Source of the DNA: an uncultured Clostridia bacterium
GTDB taxonomy: Bacteria; Bacillota; Clostridia; Lachnospirales; Cellulosilyticaceae
Assembly (NCBI GenBank): GCA_937981575.1
Contig: CALJNR010000028.1
Location: 1-64,000 of the forward strand
Reading direction: 5' to 3'
Length of the DNA stretch: 64,000 nucleotides
The position numbers and the translations under genes were made by a program. Under the pieces are notes generated by a model, which made no database searches, was not told where the DNA came from, and saw only the letters and a list, made by a program, of their open reading frames with translations. Every line of letters starts with the position of its first letter. The stretch's first letter is position 1. Of this stretch, positions 2,284 through 56,984 are shown one piece after another.

Positions 2284-4416
2284 CTAATTTAGGCCAAGTT
2301 CCTTACGTTTCTTTTCAATATGATCAATGTAAATCTGAATGGTTTTTTCTGCGTCCATTTCAACAACAACTTTGCCAAGCGCTAGTGTTTCAGTAGTTTC
2401 GGTCAGAGTTTTTACAACAACCTCACTTCCTGTAATAGAAGGCACAGGAGCGACATGAACAAGCCAGCCAAGTGCAACTGCTGTGCAGGCATCTGCAACA
2501 GCTTTTTGCTCAAGGTATTCGGGGGCACCAATAACTAAAGGCAGTTTGTTGGTATCAACATTTAGGGCATCAGCTAATTCTTTAGCAGTATGGGTCATTT
2601 TGCCGATATCAACACATGCACCATAAGAGAGTACTGGCGGGATGCCTAATTGTTTGCACACAGCTTTTAATCCTTCGCCGCATTCATCAGCTGCTTTGGG
2701 ATTAGTAAGCCCGGTATATTCCATAACAGAGGATGTACATCCTCCCGATAAGACAAGAATATTATTTTCAATCAGTCCTTTAGTGATTTTAAATATATTG
2801 CTGCCGCCTTGACCATAGCGTGCTGTTGTACAGCCTACAATCGTTGCAATACCGCGGATGTTTCCGTTAGCAATCTGTTCGATGAGTGGATCGAAGCTGC
2901 CGCCAAGTGCATTTCGGATAGATTCTGTGCTGAAGCCTACCATGCAGTCTGATACATGTGGAGGAATATAAGTTTTGCGATTTTCTGATTTTCGCTTTTT
3001 AAATGTTTCAATAGCCATATCAAGCGCTTTAGCGGCCTGTTCATTCATTTTTTCAGGTATGAAGTCTAATGTTTCTGTACCTTGGAGTTTTATAACAGGA
3101 TGTGTGCTTAAAAGTTTAGTTCCAAAACGTTTAGCAAAAAGAGGCATAGTTGGAACAGTACAGTTATAGTCAAACATAAAGAGGTCAATAACGCCGGTAG
3201 CTAGTAAATATTCCTGAGACAGCCATTCGCCTTCCTGGCCACCATAAGCTGATTGATTATGGGTGCCTTCATAGTTCATCAGTTGTTGGCCTTCGCAGAC
3301 ATGACCAAGAATTTGTATTCCTTCTGCACCGGCAGCTTTAGCTTTTTGCTGCCATTCGTCTGAAGAAGCCATATCAATGGCAACATGAGCTAGAAGTGGC
3401 ATGTGGCCGTTTGTTATGATATTAATCATATTTTCTTTTAAGAGCCCCATATTTTGTTTTTTATGCACAATTTCTTGAGTACCCATTAAGATTTCCTGGA
3501 TAATATCCAGCATGAAAAGTCCTTGATATTCATTAGCTACGCCAAGTCTTACGCTGTTTAATAAGAATTCAACGGGATCAGAAGTAAAGTTTGTCATACA
3601 CCTTGTCTGAGCATAAGCAACTTCACTGTAACCTCCGCCAGGGAACAAGCCAAGCTGTCTCCAGAGTTCTTTGCGTTTGGTCGGCGCGAAAGCTTCTACT
3701 GTTTTAGAAGGGAGATGGTAGGGTGAGTGAATATCATCAATGACCCAATTAGCAAAATCCACTGCTAACTGTTCGATCGGCTTATTAGCATCAAGACCTG
3801 CCATGTCGGCATATTTTTTGAGCTTTTCCGGATCTCGTATTTTAAGTCCGCTTTCAGGATGTTCTCCAGCTGCTTTTAAAGTTCTCGCAGCTTGATGGCA
3901 GTGAAAGATATTTGCTGATGTACCGATTGTAACGTGACGGTACATAAAGTTTCTCGATACCATTGTATGTGCATCGACGCCACAGGTACCTCTAGGGACT
4001 TTTTCGCTGATGCGGCAAGGGCCATTGGCACAGAGCTGGCAGGAGAGTCCTTCGATACAGAACTTACATTGGATCGGTTGCTGTTCACTGAATCTGTCAA
4101 ATACATTAGTCATGCCAGCATCATGTACGACTTGATACATTTCGCGCATAGCCGGATCAATAATAACATTCAGCGGATAACCAGCTTTTGATTGATCATC
4201 TTTTTTAATATGTTCTCTCTGCCACTTATGCATTTCTTCCATTGACGGTGATTTTTCAATATCTTCATAGTGCACCTTAATACGGTCGTGAATATCAGCA
4301 TGTGTATCGGGATCGTTAGAATGTTCATTCGTTAGCTTGGAGCCAAAAGTTGTTTTATCTCCACGCATACGCTCGCTGCTTCGTTCATATGATTTTTCAA
4401 TGTCTTTATCGGACAT
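2284..4416 (-). CDS. cooS: anaerobic nickel-iron carbon monoxide dehydrogenase catalytic subunit
   Basis: CooS oxidises CO to CO2 with ferredoxin as acceptor, or runs in reverse. All C-cluster ligands are visible: H338, C374, C419, C529, C560 and C601, with the catalytic lysine K638 (APEYLEQK). The B-cluster cysteines are C126, C129, C134 and C145. The D-cluster pair is C117-x2-C120 rather than the classic CX7C; the usual second cysteine position holds S125. The CX2C form is known from Desulfovibrio vulgaris CODH, which carries a [2Fe-2S] D-cluster. The protein is 710 residues, longer than the usual 630-640, because of a charged, His/Asp/Glu-rich N-terminal extension of about 75 residues. No acetyl-CoA synthase, cooF or cooC gene is adjacent. 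AAGGAGG lies 8 bases before the start. Confidence 0.95.
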   Translation of the reverse strand: MSDKDIEKSYERSSERMRGDKTTFGSKLTNEHSNDPDTHADIHDRIKVHYEDIEKSPSMEEMHKWQREHIKKDDQSKAGYPLNVIIDPAMREMYQVVHDAGMTNVFDRFSEQQPIQCKFCIEGLSCQLCANGPCRISEKVPRGTCGVDAHTMVSRNFMYRHVTIGTSANIFHCHQAARTLKAAGEHPESGLKIRDPEKLKKYADMAGLDANKPIEQLAVDFANWVIDDIHSPYHLPSKTVEAFAPTKRKELWRQLGLFPGGGYSEVAYAQTRCMTNFTSDPVEFLLNSVRLGVANEYQGLFMLDIIQEILMGTQEIVHKKQNMGLLKENMINIITNGHMPLLAHVAIDMASSDEWQQKAKAAGAEGIQILGHVCEGQQLMNYEGTHNQSAYGGQEGEWLSQEYLLATGVIDLFMFDYNCTVPTMPLFAKRFGTKLLSTHPVIKLQGTETLDFIPEKMNEQAAKALDMAIETFKKRKSENRKTYIPPHVSDCMVGFSTESIRNALGGSFDPLIEQIANGNIRGIATIVGCTTARYGQGGSNIFKITKGLIENNILVLSGGCTSSVMEYTGLTNPKAADECGEGLKAVCKQLGIPPVLSYGACVDIGKMTHTAKELADALNVDTNKLPLVIGAPEYLEQKAVADACTAVALGWLVHVAPVPSITGSEVVVKTLTETTETLALGKVVVEMDAEKTIQIYIDHIEKKRKELGLN

Positions 4417-4551
4417 GGCGATGCCTCCTTAAATAATAATTTTCTCCAATAGGGTGTGCTTATTGCTGGGTTCATATGCATGATTTACCAAATAAAATAC
4501 CATTATCCTGATGAAAGGCTTGTATCTATACGGGATCGATGAAGTATACGC

Positions 4552-5358
4552 CTAGGGAAGAAGTTCAAAGTTGTATCCCATTTCTCTTGCTTCCTTTATG
4601 AAGTCGCCAAGCACTTCGGTATTTGTTTTAGAAACAGCGTGAAGCAGATAAATTGCCCCATTGTGAAGTCCCGTAATCAGCATTTCTTTAGCTCTGCCAT
4701 GATCGGGCTGCCTATTTACATTCCAGTCAGGATAGGCAAAACTCCAAAATATAGTTTTATAGCCTAAAGCTTTTGTCATTGCCAAAGATTTCTCTGAGTA
4801 ATGCCCCATAGGCGGTCTGAAATAAGGGGGCATGTCTTCAAAAGTTACTTCTTTGTAGCGCTCAGCTACTGTCATGAGCTCAAATTTAAATTTCTCTTTA
4901 TCACCGGTAACTGTTGGCATGGAAGGGTGTGTTGTAGTGTGATTGCCTACGATGTGCCCTTCATCAGCCATGCGTTTTATAATATCGGGGTGTGTTTTGA
5001 TATAGGTGGCTGTTACAAAGAAAGTAGCTTTTACATCATGTTCTTTGAGAACATCTAATATGACAGGCGTATAACCATTTTCATAACCTTCATCAAATGT
5101 CAGGTAAATCACTTGGCGGTTTGTGTCGCCAAGACACATAGCATCATATTGATCAAGGCTGTACTTCAAGTGGGTATTAAATTGCGGCGGCTTATGCTCC
5201 TTGTTTCTTATAAACCACCAGTCATTTTTGCTGTTATCTAAGGTTTCACAATTGATAGTATTGGGGTTAGTGGTATTTGAATTAAATGATTGGGCATAAG
5301 CTGTTTGAGAAAGACACGTGCTGATAAGGAGCAGCGCTAATAACTTTTTTATTATCAT
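4552..5358 (-). CDS. PdaA-type polysaccharide (peptidoglycan) deacetylase, secreted
   Basis: The 268-residue protein has an N-terminal signal peptide (about residues 1-23, ending AYA) and a NodB deacetylase domain. Visible motifs are TFDEGYENG (metal-binding aspartate), HTTTHPS (HxxxH), RPPMG and a late LLHAV histidine. The sequence between signal and domain (WWFIRNKEHKPP) resembles PdaA, the muramic-acid de-N-acetylase needed for delta-lactam formation in spore cortex. That makes a role in cortex peptidoglycan likely, by inference. It lies 135 bases upstream of and parallel to cooS, and is divergent from the CapA-like gene. AAAGGATG precedes the start. Confidence 0.88.
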   Translation of the reverse strand: MIIKKLLALLLISTCLSQTAYAQSFNSNTTNPNTINCETLDNSKNDWWFIRNKEHKPPQFNTHLKYSLDQYDAMCLGDTNRQVIYLTFDEGYENGYTPVILDVLKEHDVKATFFVTATYIKTHPDIIKRMADEGHIVGNHTTTHPSMPTVTGDKEKFKFELMTVAERYKEVTFEDMPPYFRPPMGHYSEKSLAMTKALGYKTIFWSFAYPDWNVNRQPDHGRAKEMLITGLHNGAIYLLHAVSKTNTEVLGDFIKEAREMGYNFELLP

Positions 5359-37784: not shown

Positions 37785-38024
37785 TTTCAAATAATAAAAG
37801 GGTTATCACATCCGCTAAGGACGAGATAACCCGTGGTACCACCTTAATTTACAGATAATAACTATCTGCCTCTAAGTCATTTTAACGGATGACGGCCGGA
37901 GTAACTCAACTCAAAAGATGTAATTCATATAAAATGCTGTATGTGTTTGCACCATCCACACACTCTCTGTAACAAAACATATTATATTACTAGGTCTTTA
38001 TCAAAGTCTTTAATATATAACATT
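37785..38024 (-). promoter_or_regulatory. T-box riboswitch leader of tyrS (specifier UAC)
   Basis: Read on the minus strand, the leader holds a stem I region with GAGAGUGUGUGG and GGUGCAAACAC, a specifier-loop GAAUUACAUC with UAC (plus-strand 37920-37922), the conserved CCGUUA, and the T-box AAGGTGGTACCACG (37832-37845). A terminator stem follows (GGGTTATC 37825-37832 with GATAACCC 37800-37807) and then TTTTATTATT. Uncharged tRNA-Tyr should stabilise the antiterminator. The TAC specifier agrees with tyrS. Confidence 0.92.
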
Positions 38025-52118: not shown

Positions 52119-53438
52119 ATGAGAGGCTTAACCTTTAAAAGAGGAATTCACCCAAATTATAATAAAGAAGCTACAAGCTCAAAAATCATAGAGACATTGA
52201 TGCCAAAAGGTGAAGTTGTATTTCCTATGTCCCAGCATTTAGGAGGATCATGTACGCCTATAGTGAAAAAGGGAGACAGGGTACTTGTTGGGCAAAAAGT
52301 AGGTGATTCTGCTGCATTTGTTTCTGCACCTATCCATAGCAGTGTGTCAGGGACTGTAAAGGCAATAGAGGAAAGAAGAATATTTAGAGGAACTAAAGAT
52401 CTTTGTGTTGTTATAGAAAATGATTTCACTTATGAGGATGCGCCTTATATGTCTGAAAATGCAATTTCTTCTTATACAGACCTTACAAAGGAACAACTCA
52501 TACAGATTGTAAAAGACGCGGGGCTTGTTGGTATGGGAGGAGCGGGATTTCCGACTCATGTAAAACTTGCAGTTCCTCCAGATAAAGAGATAAACACAAT
52601 TATTATCAATGGCGCTGAGTGTGAACCCTATCTTACCTCTGATCATCGGGTAATGATTGAAGAGACCGACAGAGTAATAGAGGGAATGGAAATTCTGCTG
52701 CGGGTGTTCAAGAAAGCAGAAGCTGTTATTTGTGTTGAAGATAATAAAAAAGATGCTTATGAAATGCTGACACAGGGAGTAAAAGAGAAAGAGCGTTTAA
52801 AAACAGCTTTAGTACACACTAAATATCCCCAAGGGTCAGAAAAGCATCTTATTTATGCTGTTACAGGCAAGGAGGTCCCTATAGGCAAGCTTCCTATTGA
52901 TATCGGATGTGCTGTTTTTAATATTGATTCTGTTATCGCTGTATGGCGTGCTGTTACAAAAGGAAGGCCTATAATGAGAAGGATTGTAACGGTAGCTGGA
53001 GGGGGAGTAGACAACCCATGTAATATAAAAGTAAGACTCGGAACTTCTTACAGAGAACTGCTTGAATATGCTAAGTGGGATTCGGCGCGCACTGTTAAAA
53101 TTATTTCCGGAGGGCCTATGATGGGAACAGCTATCTCTGATATTGATGTTCCTGTTGTGAAAGGGACATCAGCCATTTTATGTTTTACAGAAAAAGAAAT
53201 GGGACGAGATCAAATATCAAATTGTATCAGATGCGGCAAGTGTGTGGATGTCTGTCCAATGCAGCTTGTTCCGAATACGCTTCAAGCGTCTGCACTCAAT
53301 CATAAATATGAAGAATTTTTATCTTATGATGGCATGAGCTGTATTGAATGTGGCTGCTGTTCTTATATTTGCCCGGCCAAAAGACAGCTTGTTCAGAGCA
53401 TTCGAACAGCTAAAACAGCGATTCGCTCTAGAAAATAA
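52119..53438 (+). CDS. rnfC: electron transport complex subunit RnfC
   Basis: The 439-residue subunit is the cytoplasmic NADH-side part of Rnf. It has GMGGAGFPTHVKL (NAD/FMN region), a SLBB-like domain, and two [4Fe-4S] motifs near the C-terminus, C369-C372-C375-C379 and C408-C411-C414-C418. Rnf couples ferredoxin oxidation by NAD+ to Na+ or H+ export. It opens a six-gene operon in the usual clostridial order C-D-G-E-A-B. A GAAGGGGG site precedes the ATG. Confidence 0.97.
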   Translation: MRGLTFKRGIHPNYNKEATSSKIIETLMPKGEVVFPMSQHLGGSCTPIVKKGDRVLVGQKVGDSAAFVSAPIHSSVSGTVKAIEERRIFRGTKDLCVVIENDFTYEDAPYMSENAISSYTDLTKEQLIQIVKDAGLVGMGGAGFPTHVKLAVPPDKEINTIIINGAECEPYLTSDHRVMIEETDRVIEGMEILLRVFKKAEAVICVEDNKKDAYEMLTQGVKEKERLKTALVHTKYPQGSEKHLIYAVTGKEVPIGKLPIDIGCAVFNIDSVIAVWRAVTKGRPIMRRIVTVAGGGVDNPCNIKVRLGTSYRELLEYAKWDSARTVKIISGGPMMGTAISDIDVPVVKGTSAILCFTEKEMGRDQISNCIRCGKCVDVCPMQLVPNTLQASALNHKYEEFLSYDGMSCIECGCCSYICPAKRQLVQSIRTAKTAIRSRK

Positions 53439-53458
53439 GTAAAAAGGAGACAACTAAC

Positions 53459-54415
53459 ATGGAAAGAATTTTAAATGTTTCATCATCCCCGCATGTCAAA
53501 GCAGACCATACAACAACAAGCATTATGCGGGATGTAGTTATCGCCTTAATGCCTGCACTATTTGCAGGAGTATTTTTCTTTGGCATTAGGGTACTGTTTG
53601 TTACACTTATCAGTGTTATTTCATGTGTTTTATTTGAATGGATTTGGCAGAAGTCATTCAAAAAAACTGTTACAATAGTAGACTTAAGTGCTGTGGTAAC
53701 AGGAATACTGCTGGCTTTTAACTTGCCTTCAAGCATTCCGTTTTACATGGTCATTATCGGAGCTTTTGTAGCTATTATCCTTGTTAAACAGATCTTTGGG
53801 GGAATAGGACAAAATTTTATAAATCCAGCATTAGCAGCAAGAGCTTTTTTGCTCGCGGCTTATTCAACAGCTCTTACTGATTTTTCACTCCCAGTCAAAT
53901 GGGGAAGCAGTGTTGATGCTGTCTCATCAGCTACGCCGCTTGCACTTATCAAACAGGGAAATTTAGAGCAGCTCCCAAGCCTTATGGATGCATTTATTGG
54001 AAATATTCCTGGAAGTTTAGGGGAAGTTTCAGCTTTAGCAATACTTCTTGGTGCTGCTTACTTGTTTTATAAAAAGATTATAAAATGGCATATTCCTCTA
54101 TTTTATATTGCAACTATTTTTATCTTAACAACACTGCTTAATGGGTTTGATATCAATGCAAGCTTTTATGGTTTGTTTGCAGGTGGCATTATGCTTGGAG
54201 CCTTTTTTATGGCAACTGATTATACTACTTCACCTATGACTGAAAAGGGCCAAATATTATTTGCTATTGGGGCGGGAGTTATTACATCTGTTATACGACT
54301 ATATGGAGGCTATCCTGAAGGGGTAAGCTATAGTATTTTAATCATGAATCTTGCAGTACCTCTCATTGACAGATATGTGAAGACAAAACCTTTTGGGGGA
54401 GGGAAGAAAGCATGA
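53459..54415 (+). CDS. rnfD: electron transport complex subunit RnfD
   Basis: The 318-residue membrane protein has about nine to ten helices and the covalent FMN site SSATPL with T159. It carries electrons within the membrane complex and contributes to ion transport. rnfG overlaps its stop by four bases (ATGA), indicating translational coupling. AAGGAG lies upstream. Confidence 0.96.
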   Translation: MERILNVSSSPHVKADHTTTSIMRDVVIALMPALFAGVFFFGIRVLFVTLISVISCVLFEWIWQKSFKKTVTIVDLSAVVTGILLAFNLPSSIPFYMVIIGAFVAIILVKQIFGGIGQNFINPALAARAFLLAAYSTALTDFSLPVKWGSSVDAVSSATPLALIKQGNLEQLPSLMDAFIGNIPGSLGEVSALAILLGAAYLFYKKIIKWHIPLFYIATIFILTTLLNGFDINASFYGLFAGGIMLGAFFMATDYTTSPMTEKGQILFAIGAGVITSVIRLYGGYPEGVSYSILIMNLAVPLIDRYVKTKPFGGGKKA

Positions 54416-54978
54416 AAGAATCACTGAAACTTGGTATAATTTTGTTTTTTATTACTGCTTTATGCGCAGGACTGTTGGGACTTATTAATAATGTAACAAG
54501 TCCAGTCATTTCACAAAACATTATCGATTCTCAGCAGCAGGCAATGAAGATGCTTGTACAGGAAGCGGAAGTATTTGAACAAGTAGAAAATTTATCTGAA
54601 GATATGATTAAAGAAGTATATATAGCAAAAACAGGCGGTATCGCCATAGGAACTGTAGTAAAGGTGATGCCAAACGGCTATGGCGGAACGATTGCCATAC
54701 TCGTTGGACTTAATTTAGAAGCAGAAATTCAAGGGATTAAAATCCTGTCTCATACTGAAACGCCGGGCTTTGGGGCAAATGCGACCAAAGAAAACTTTAC
54801 CGGACAGTTTTTGCAGAAAGTTCCGCCGTTAAGTGTTGTTAAATCTGCCCCAGAGGCTGATGACATTGTTGCACTTACAGGAGCTACAATTACTTCTGAT
54901 GCCATTGTAGAGGGGGTTAATCAAGCTGCAAAGTATGTATTAGAACACCAAGCTGTATTAACGGAGGGAGGAAATTAA
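54412..54978 (+). CDS. rnfG: electron transport complex subunit RnfG
   Basis: The 188-residue protein has one N-terminal membrane helix and an FMN-binding domain facing outside. The covalent FMN threonine is T159 in LTGATITSD. HTETPGFGANAT matches the family. rnfE starts at the base right after its stop codon. Confidence 0.96.
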   Translation: MKESLKLGIILFFITALCAGLLGLINNVTSPVISQNIIDSQQQAMKMLVQEAEVFEQVENLSEDMIKEVYIAKTGGIAIGTVVKVMPNGYGGTIAILVGLNLEAEIQGIKILSHTETPGFGANATKENFTGQFLQKVPPLSVVKSAPEADDIVALTGATITSDAIVEGVNQAAKYVLEHQAVLTEGGN

Positions 54979-55575
54979 ATGAATGCATTAAAAGATAGGC
55001 TGAAAGCAGGCATTATTCTGGATAATCCTATTTTTTCGCAGGTATTGGGAATGTGTCCGACTTTAGCTGTTACGACCAGCGGAACCAATGCGGTAGGGAT
55101 GGGCCTTGCAACGACTTCTGTACTTATATGTTCCAATTTGGTTATTTCTCTGCTTAGGAAATTCATTCCTTCTAAAATCCGTATCCCTGCGTTCATTGTT
55201 ATTATTGCAAGTTTCGTAACGATGGTGGATTTGCTGCTTCAAGCCTATATGACTGATCTGCATGCAGCACTGGGTTTATTTATTCCTCTTATCGTTGTTA
55301 ACTGTATTATTCTCGGAAGAGCAGAAGCTTATGCATCTAAAAATAAAATAATACCTTCTGTTTTTGATGCAGTTGGTATGGGAATAGGATTTACAGCGGC
55401 ACTTACGATTATTGGCGTAATCAGAGAAATACTAGGGACTGGAGAACTTTTTGGCAGAGCCTTTCTGCCGGCCGGGTATACCCCAGCTAATATTATGATA
55501 CTTGCTCCTGGAGCCTTTTTTACACTAGGCTTATTGATGGCAGCTTTAAACGCATTTAAAGCTAGAAAACGCTAG
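54979..55575 (+). CDS. rnfE: electron transport complex subunit RnfE
   Basis: The 198-residue membrane protein has six helices. C26 (GMCPTLA) and C109 (VNCIILG) are the conserved cysteines that, with the pair in RnfA, hold an intramembrane [2Fe-2S] cluster in Rnf/Nqr complexes. GGAGGGAGG ribosome binding site lies in the end of rnfG. Confidence 0.96.
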   Translation: MNALKDRLKAGIILDNPIFSQVLGMCPTLAVTTSGTNAVGMGLATTSVLICSNLVISLLRKFIPSKIRIPAFIVIIASFVTMVDLLLQAYMTDLHAALGLFIPLIVVNCIILGRAEAYASKNKIIPSVFDAVGMGIGFTAALTIIGVIREILGTGELFGRAFLPAGYTPANIMILAPGAFFTLGLLMAALNAFKARKR

Positions 55576-55587
55576 GAGGAATGGACA

Positions 55588-56160
55588 ATGAACTTATTTT
55601 TATTATTCTTAGGAGCAGCACTTGTTAACAATTTTGTACTTTCAAGGTTTTTAGGGATATGTCCTTTTCTTGGGGTTTCTAAAAAAGTAGAAACTTCGTT
55701 AGGAATGGGGGCTGCTGTTACATTTGTTATGGGACTTGCATCAATGATATCTTATATTGTCTATGCCTATATCCTAAAACCATTGCAAATCGAGTATCTA
55801 TACACTGTAGCCTTTATTTTGGTTATAGCTTCACTTGTTCAGTTTGTTGAAATGGTCATTCAAAAAATGAGCCCATCACTTTATAGCGCACTAGGTGTTT
55901 ACCTGCCGCTTATTACAACAAATTGTGCCGTTTTGGGAGTCGCAATACTTAATATGCAGAAAAACTATTCGCTTATTGAATCTATTGTAAACGGCGTAGG
56001 AGGTGCTGTGGGCTTTACGCTTGTTATGGTACTTTTTGCAGGGATTAGAGAAAGAATAGAAAATAATGAACTATTGGCTGCTTTTAAAGGACTGCCTATT
56101 GCACTTCTTACAGCAGGCTTTATGGCTATTGCGTTTGCAGGCTTTCAAAATATGATATAA
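55588..56160 (+). CDS. rnfA: electron transport complex subunit RnfA
   Basis: The 190-residue membrane protein is homologous to RnfE in inverted topology. C25 (GICPFLG) and C113 (TNCAVLG) are the cluster cysteines. Six helices are visible. It starts 12 bases after rnfE, with an AGGAGGA site. Confidence 0.96.
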   Translation: MNLFLLFLGAALVNNFVLSRFLGICPFLGVSKKVETSLGMGAAVTFVMGLASMISYIVYAYILKPLQIEYLYTVAFILVIASLVQFVEMVIQKMSPSLYSALGVYLPLITTNCAVLGVAILNMQKNYSLIESIVNGVGGAVGFTLVMVLFAGIRERIENNELLAAFKGLPIALLTAGFMAIAFAGFQNMI

Positions 56161-56180
56161 CTTATGAAAGGGGAATACAA

Positions 56181-56984
56181 ATGGATATTACAGCAATTAT
56201 ATACCCTGTTTTATCTATAGGCGGGATTGGCCTATTGTTTGGAATCGGGCTAGGTATAGCAGCTAAGAAATTTGCTGTTCCTGTCGATGAACGCGTGCAA
56301 GGCGTTAAAGATAGCCTTCCGGGAGCAAACTGTGGAGGATGCGGCTTTGCGGGATGCGAAGCATTTGCTAAAGCTGTCGTAAGCGAAGAAGCAAAAATCA
56401 GCGGATGTCCAGTATGTAATCAAGATCAAATTAATACAATTGCAAAAATTATGGGTATAGAAGCATCTAGCAGTGAGAAGTACCGAGCTGTTGTAAGATG
56501 CCAAGGTAATCATACGAATGCTAAGCCTAAATATGATTATTCAGGCATCCAGAGCTGCCATGATGCAGCGCTCGTTGGGGGTGGAAACAAAGTCTGCGGC
56601 TATGGGTGCCTTGGGTTTGGAAGTTGCTATGGTGTGTGTGTTTTTGATGCCATTACGATGGTGGATGGACTGCCGATTATCAATGCCGAAAAATGTGTTG
56701 GATGCGGAGCATGCAAAAATACCTGTCCCAGAAGTATTATTACCATTTTACCTGCCTATGCAAGTTACAATGTAAACTGTATTTCTAAAGATAAAGGAAA
56801 AGAAGTAAAAGCAGGCTGCAGCGTGGGATGTATTGGCTGTGGAATTTGCCAAAAGCAATGCGAAGCAGATGCAATCACTATCGCTAATAATTTGGCAGAA
56901 ATTGATATTGAAAAGTGTACACGCTGCGGCAAATGTGAGCAGAAGTGTCCTACTAAGGCAATTTCTAACCTTCTGAATATATAA
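56181..56984 (+). CDS. rnfB: electron transport complex subunit RnfB
   Basis: The 267-residue subunit is the ferredoxin-side entry of Rnf. An N-terminal helix (about 7-29) is followed by a [4Fe-4S] motif (C51, C54, C59, C76) and a C-terminal polyferredoxin part. Cysteine sets include C172-C175-C178-C182, C217-C220-C223-C227 and C246-C249-C252-C256, plus further cysteines at 126, 139, 143, 149 and 153. It ends the operon, followed by a terminator. Confidence 0.97.
   Translation: MDITAIIYPVLSIGGIGLLFGIGLGIAAKKFAVPVDERVQGVKDSLPGANCGGCGFAGCEAFAKAVVSEEAKISGCPVCNQDQINTIAKIMGIEASSSEKYRAVVRCQGNHTNAKPKYDYSGIQSCHDAALVGGGNKVCGYGCLGFGSCYGVCVFDAITMVDGLPIINAEKCVGCGACKNTCPRSIITILPAYASYNVNCISKDKGKEVKAGCSVGCIGCGICQKQCEADAITIANNLAEIDIEKCTRCGKCEQKCPTKAISNLLNI

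Follow-up and report, generated by a model that had tools for sequence, protein, structure and literature searches.

The gene considered here lies in a window of 64,000 nt, by which we mean the whole stretch of DNA that was analysed, and its features are collected in Table 1. The open reading frame begins with ATG, and its product belongs to the CooS-type CO dehydrogenases (CODHs), scoring 672 bits with TIGR01702 (cut-off 478) in a match that spans residues 87 to 709. The start is sound, because a Shine-Dalgarno sequence precedes the ATG and the N-terminal extension is aligned in 76 of 80 homologues. The AlphaFold model of the protein, made with 57 sequences from the window and the related loci, has a mean pLDDT of 81.8 and a pTM of 0.85, and can be superposed on CooS-type CODHs of solved structure at Z scores of roughly 45 to 57, which reflect the core and barely test residues before 77.

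Table 1. Features at and around the cooS-family gene, in window coordinates
Feature	Position	Strand	Evidence or remark
cooS-family gene, clade D / structural group D-2, 710 aa	2284..4416	-	TIGR01702, D-2 motif set, tree
D-cluster pair C117-x2-C120	4057..4068	-	invariant, 78/78 homologues having the region
N-terminal extension, residues 1-84; conserved N34, P36, H39, D41, W65-Q-R, H69	4165..4416	-	80 homologues
Shine-Dalgarno AAGGAGG	4424..4430	-	7 nt ahead of cooS ATG
Forespore-type promoter-like element GCATA-N18-CACCCTA	4450..4479	-	begins 63 nt before cooS ATG
pdaA (spore cortex delta-lactam deacetylase)	4552..5358	-	TIGR02884 310 bits, cut-off 298
Rnf gene cluster	52119-56984	+	RnfC, D, A above cut-off; RnfB-like below

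An earlier note on this DNA had reported no acetyl-CoA synthase (ACS), cooF or cooC near the gene, which holds at the locus, and neither ACS nor CooC was found in the whole draft genome (92.7% complete), in which this gene is the only CODH. The same note had suggested that Rnf at 52 to 57 kb could use ferredoxin reduced by the enzyme; the Rnf genes exist, but nothing ties them to cooS. Across the flanks of 80 loci, no family besides cooS occurs in more than 14. The two most widespread families, an ABC ATPase at 14 loci and a Crp/Fnr regulator at 9, stand at varying offsets and were rejected as conserved partners, their names being taken from one sequence each, and pdaA, which lies directly upstream of cooS in the same direction, was rejected as well, being kept as a neighbor only in the sister locus L004. 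Rfam finds no riboswitch at the cooS gene, and its only match elsewhere in the window is a T-box leader at 37814-38013 (-) with 133 bits.

The protein can be placed in an established group. Structural group D-2, as defined in Table 2 of PMC6344411, has a type III D-cluster, the C-cluster series H C C C C C, and Asn and Lys at the catalytic positions, and the window protein has all of these, namely H338, C374, C419, C529, C560, C601, N169 and K638 with a type III D-cluster. To place the group we built a tree of 66 CODHs picked from 219, with clade and group labels drawn from residue signatures and not from a reference tree. Groups D-1, D-2, D-3/4, C and E/F each form one side of a branch, D-1 and D-2 are sisters with support 99/98, and all D groups come together, the window protein among them, with support 93/74.

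The cysteines of the window protein include those at 117, 120, 126, 129, 134 and 145. The type III D-cluster has its pair in C117 and C120, which together with C126 make up the motif C-x2-C-x5-C, and C126/129/134/145 align with the B-cluster cysteines. The CX2C D-cluster with Ser at 125 that the earlier note had described is borne out: of the 80 homologues, 78 have the region, and all of these keep both cysteines and Ser125. A second CX7C cysteine at another place, which the note would have counted against itself, does not appear in the alignment. A [2Fe-2S] cluster at this pair is plausible on grounds of homology, since the D. vulgaris CODH and CooS-V both carry a [2Fe-2S] D-cluster at a CX2C motif (PMC9311411).

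At the active site, the six C-cluster ligands and Lys638 are kept in the window protein and in 80/80 homologues. The statement that all C-cluster ligands remain was thus right for the six, but it overlooked that Asn169 stands where CODH-II has the acid-base residue His93, with Asn in 79/79 homologues having the position, and it overlooked Glu636 too. The latter is invariant in 80/80 homologues and aligns with Glu556 of CooS-V, which is a ligand of the CooS-V hybrid cluster (PMC9311411). Asn418 also matches CooS-V, and by residue signatures from 219 distinct CODHs, in which one D-1 row is misaligned, Glu636 and Asn418 are common to clades C and D and not found in E/F. The Glu that D-1 and CooS-V have at the Cys295 position is not present here: Cys374, the equivalent of Cys295 of CODH-II, stands in 80/80 homologues, so that, unlike in CooS-V, a Ni,Fe cluster is possible in D-2.

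The N-terminal extension is genuine and not the product of a wrong start, since all but four of the 80 homologues can be aligned with 75 or more of its 84 residues; the exceptions are L066 (72 residues), L028 (37) and the fragments L067 and L082. It diverges more than the core, with a mean identity among homologues of 0.60 vs 0.85. The description of it as rich in Asp, Glu and His was correct as far as it went (D10 E9 H6), but K10 and R5 are there as well, so the extension is charged in both signs. Among 57 sequences, N34, W65, Q66, R67, H69, Q75, P81 and N83 are invariant, and the motif WQRxH is found in 92/92 D-2 proteins vs 0/127 CODHs from other groups. The model has pLDDT 71 to 83 at residues 31 to 70, residues 1 to 26 are probably disordered as modeled, and a Pfam search with the extension alone gives no family above cut-off. 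We propose that the extension, with its conserved His, Asp and Trp residues, would serve on the core as an element specific to D-2, be it a lid, a docking surface or a metal-binding site.

Upstream of the gene is an element resembling a forespore promoter. The consensus of forespore sigma-G promoters is GHATR-N17/18-CATNHTA. The pattern GHATR-N18-CAnnnTA occurs in 11/72 D-2 upstreams vs 5/697 other genes. A relaxed pattern, G[ACT]ATA-N17/18-VAnnnTA at 50 to 95 nt before the start, was fitted by eye on the D-2 upstreams before counting, and in that same fitting set it occurs in 40/72 vs 13/558 other genes, a comparison that may be blurred because the control upstreams belong to mechanically chosen ORF starts and have a lower A+T content (GC 0.34 vs 0.30). 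The enlarged D-2 set has it in 48/92 (other genes 13/560), where the p-value of 5.6e-35 is optimistic because of the fitting, so that more weight falls on the counts in other gene sets. The sister group D-1, CooS-V included, has it in 17/59 (p 2e-11), while D-3/4 has 0/13 and E/F 0/42; clade C has 2/12, with the wrong-spacer control likewise raised (3/12). Removal of similar upstreams leaves 43/85 in D-2 and 15/55 in D-1. Among the 72 D-2 upstreams, spacers of 12 to 16 and 20 to 24 are not enriched to a similar degree and a spacer of 19 is enriched slightly at most, and wrong spacers are not enriched in the enlarged D-2 or the D-1 set. The Negativicutes D-2 genes have the relaxed pattern in 5/18. 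The gene at locus L227, whose product is the crystallised CooS-V (628/628 residues identical to 7b7q), has GTATA-N18-CAATCTA 62 nt ahead of its start, so the solved, CO-inactive CooS-V also has a forespore-type promoter-like element.

Known forespore genes served as positive controls. The pattern is found at a similar distance before spoVT of the same genomes in 22/30 cases and before gpr in 6/24 (p 4.8e-5), but SASP upstreams fail (2/16 and 1/7), which may reflect a weaker -35 in SASP promoters, and the upstream of the window pdaA is also without the relaxed pattern. With spoVT and gpr positive and SASP mostly negative, the pattern has specificity but lacks sensitivity. Patterns for sigma-E, sigma-K and a B. 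subtilis-style sigma-F show no enrichment at D-2 upstreams, and consensus patterns for FNR/Crp, Rex, PerR, Fur, NsrR and NikR match 0 or 1 of 72 upstreams each. Sporomusa-group D-2 upstreams (L060, L061, L068 and others) lack the pattern and have another upstream block in common; several Sporomusa-group spoVT upstreams are likewise without it.

The genomes holding D-2 genes also carry spore genes. SASP genes (PF00269) are in 51/51 D-2 genomes, and among 398 genomes sampled evenly across the phylum they are in 81/81 D-1/D-2 holders vs 74/82 other CODH holders (p 0.0034) and vs 263/317 of all other genomes (p 1.7e-6), both p-values being uncorrected for kinship. The window genome itself has sigG (466 bits, cut-off 457), spoVT, gpr and SASP genes. 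By hand count, D-2 is the sole CODH above cut-off in 33/50 D-2 genomes; CooC is found in 0/22 genomes with D-2 as the only CODH vs 6/6 with another CODH. ACS is in 11/51 D-2 genomes, a count from which a 52nd genome, G046, was left out as a D-1 holder without a match. The distribution is patchy: among five genomes of the genus, the gene is present in G000 and G001 and absent in G002 (rated 100% complete). Geosporobacter ferrireducens has two D-2 copies (L010, L012), each 89% identical to the window protein. The type sequence of D-2 is that of Ruminiclostridium cellulolyticum, a spore former that can be handled in the laboratory. A same-family relative has a locus (L090; G018, C8:85037-86876) where a CODH with a His-rich N-terminus like that of clade B groups is split over several frames, perhaps as a pseudogene or through misassembly. 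CODH matches in open frames of 910 to 924 aa occur in G085:C157, G090:C13 and G092:C19, each with a weaker CODH-like frame of 778 to 793 aa about 5 kb off.

It is fairly probable, in our estimate, that the D-1/D-2 branch with CooS-V is a forespore protein family, in which a CODH scaffold was recruited into the endospore programme. For D-2 itself the evidence leans toward a CooS-family protein transcribed in the forespore via sigma-G or sigma-F and serving the spore programme, not CO metabolism; neither the SASP promoters nor the pdaA next to cooS conform to the forespore pattern. Those two misfits, together with the fitting of the pattern on data, speak for a rival account in which the upstream element is an A+T-rich coincidence or serves another sigma factor, and clade D is an HCP-related vegetative stress enzyme. 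Against this stand the enrichment at the correct spacer only, the fixed distance, the independent D-1 set, the positive spoVT and gpr controls and the empty count in E/F, and we think such an account quite improbable. The earlier note's own reading, a vegetative CODH reducing ferredoxin for Rnf, we rate as very improbable: the Rnf genes are in the window and the C-cluster ligands are complete, but there is no gene link, CooC or ACS, the promoter-like element is of forespore type, the catalytic His has become Asn, and the nearest solved relative is without CO activity.

On chemistry, the main rival is a true Ni,Fe cluster, which Cys374 would allow. The gene would then encode a forespore-expressed true Ni,Fe-CODH, with CO/CO2 chemistry supplying electrons to the spore or taking them up, for instance in germination. 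The same promoter evidence serves it as serves the forespore reading that we prefer, and the invariance of the six ligands and Lys638 speaks for it, but the acid-base His is uniformly Asn, CooC was found in none of the 22 genomes with D-2 alone, and the sister CooS-V is inactive with CO. Some CODHs mature without CooC. We judge this account unlikely, and prefer D-2 as probably a forespore-expressed, stand-alone redox enzyme that is not a CO dehydrogenase. The loss of the catalytic His, the retention of the CooS-V-type Glu and the absence of CooC would place its chemistry nearer to CooS-V and HCP than to CO oxidation. In the scheme we propose, cooS would be switched on in the forespore and its product would form a CODH-type homodimer with a bridging [2Fe-2S] D-cluster, through which electrons from a small carrier would pass by way of the B-cluster to the C-site. 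The chemistry there would be like that of CooS-V or HCP, either the reduction of small oxidised N or O species or the work of a redox buffer or sensor, so that the site may reduce a small molecule or store redox equivalents while the spore forms, lies dormant or germinates.

Among the CODH clades it is clade D for which genome context gave no answer. In the eLife 2026 survey (PMC13056359), clade D genes mostly stand alone (64%), and PMC6557876 describes the physiological function of CODH-V as unknown. Among open-licence papers, we found none that ties clade D cooS to sporulation by title or abstract, and a C. difficile sigma-factor paper (PMC3789822) makes no mention of 'cooS' or 'carbon monoxide'. 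Within that literature, the hallmark extension of D-2 and the forespore-type promoter-like element of D-1/D-2 appear new. A forespore promoter, if real, would account for how little vegetative contexts and CO tests have revealed and would direct attention to sporulating cells and purified spores, and the reading as a forespore family would explain solitary genes without an assigned role. Forespore expression would offer a first testable role for enzymes whose purpose is unknown. Surveys may then be misled where clade D genes are counted as evidence of CO use, a point sharpened by D-2, which is often its host's only CODH, in hosts without detectable CooC.

Compared with D-2 as tabulated by Inoue et al. 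2019 (PMC6344411), nothing that defines the group differs and all motifs of the D-2 row are shared. The literature already has both group D-2 and the type III D-cluster, and since the motif set is that of D-2 the D-cluster itself is not new; that row gives no N-terminal motif, and what is added here is the extension and the forespore-type promoter. CooS-V-type genes are said to occur only alongside other CODHs (PMC9311411), and clade D has in PMC13056359 a purely auxiliary role; D-2, often the sole CODH, differs from both statements. HCP shares with the window protein the Prismane/CODH superfamily (PF03063) and, through Glu636, the position of the CooS-V hybrid-cluster ligand. In contrast to HCP, the window protein has a D-cluster and Cys374, both characteristic of CODHs, and it is not an HCP by score (35 and 33.5 bits vs cut-offs of 367 and 360.8). 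The window genome holds two separate hybrid-cluster-protein-like genes (L002 at G000:C19:79373 and L003 at G000:C32:14013). The D. vulgaris CODH (group E-2, PDB 6b6v), to which the earlier note had drawn its parallel, shares the CX2C D-cluster, reported as [2Fe-2S] and linked to oxygen tolerance in that enzyme as cited in PMC9311411, but it is distant at 323 bits, keeps the catalytic His, and has Gln and Ser at positions 418 and 636. That parallel is not supported: the nearest solved protein, at 462 bits, is CooS-V of Carboxydothermus hydrogenoformans (PDB 7b7q), which has no CO activity and is a very slow hydroxylamine reductase, with a kcat of 0.13 per s (PMC9311411). CooS-V belongs to the sister group D-1 and has in common with D-2 the CX2C D-cluster, the equivalents of Glu636 and Asn418 and the promoter-like element; unlike D-2, it lacks the extension and carries Glu at the Cys295 position and Tyr where the acid-base His would be, and its genome also holds other CODHs, whereas the window gene is the sole CODH of its host.
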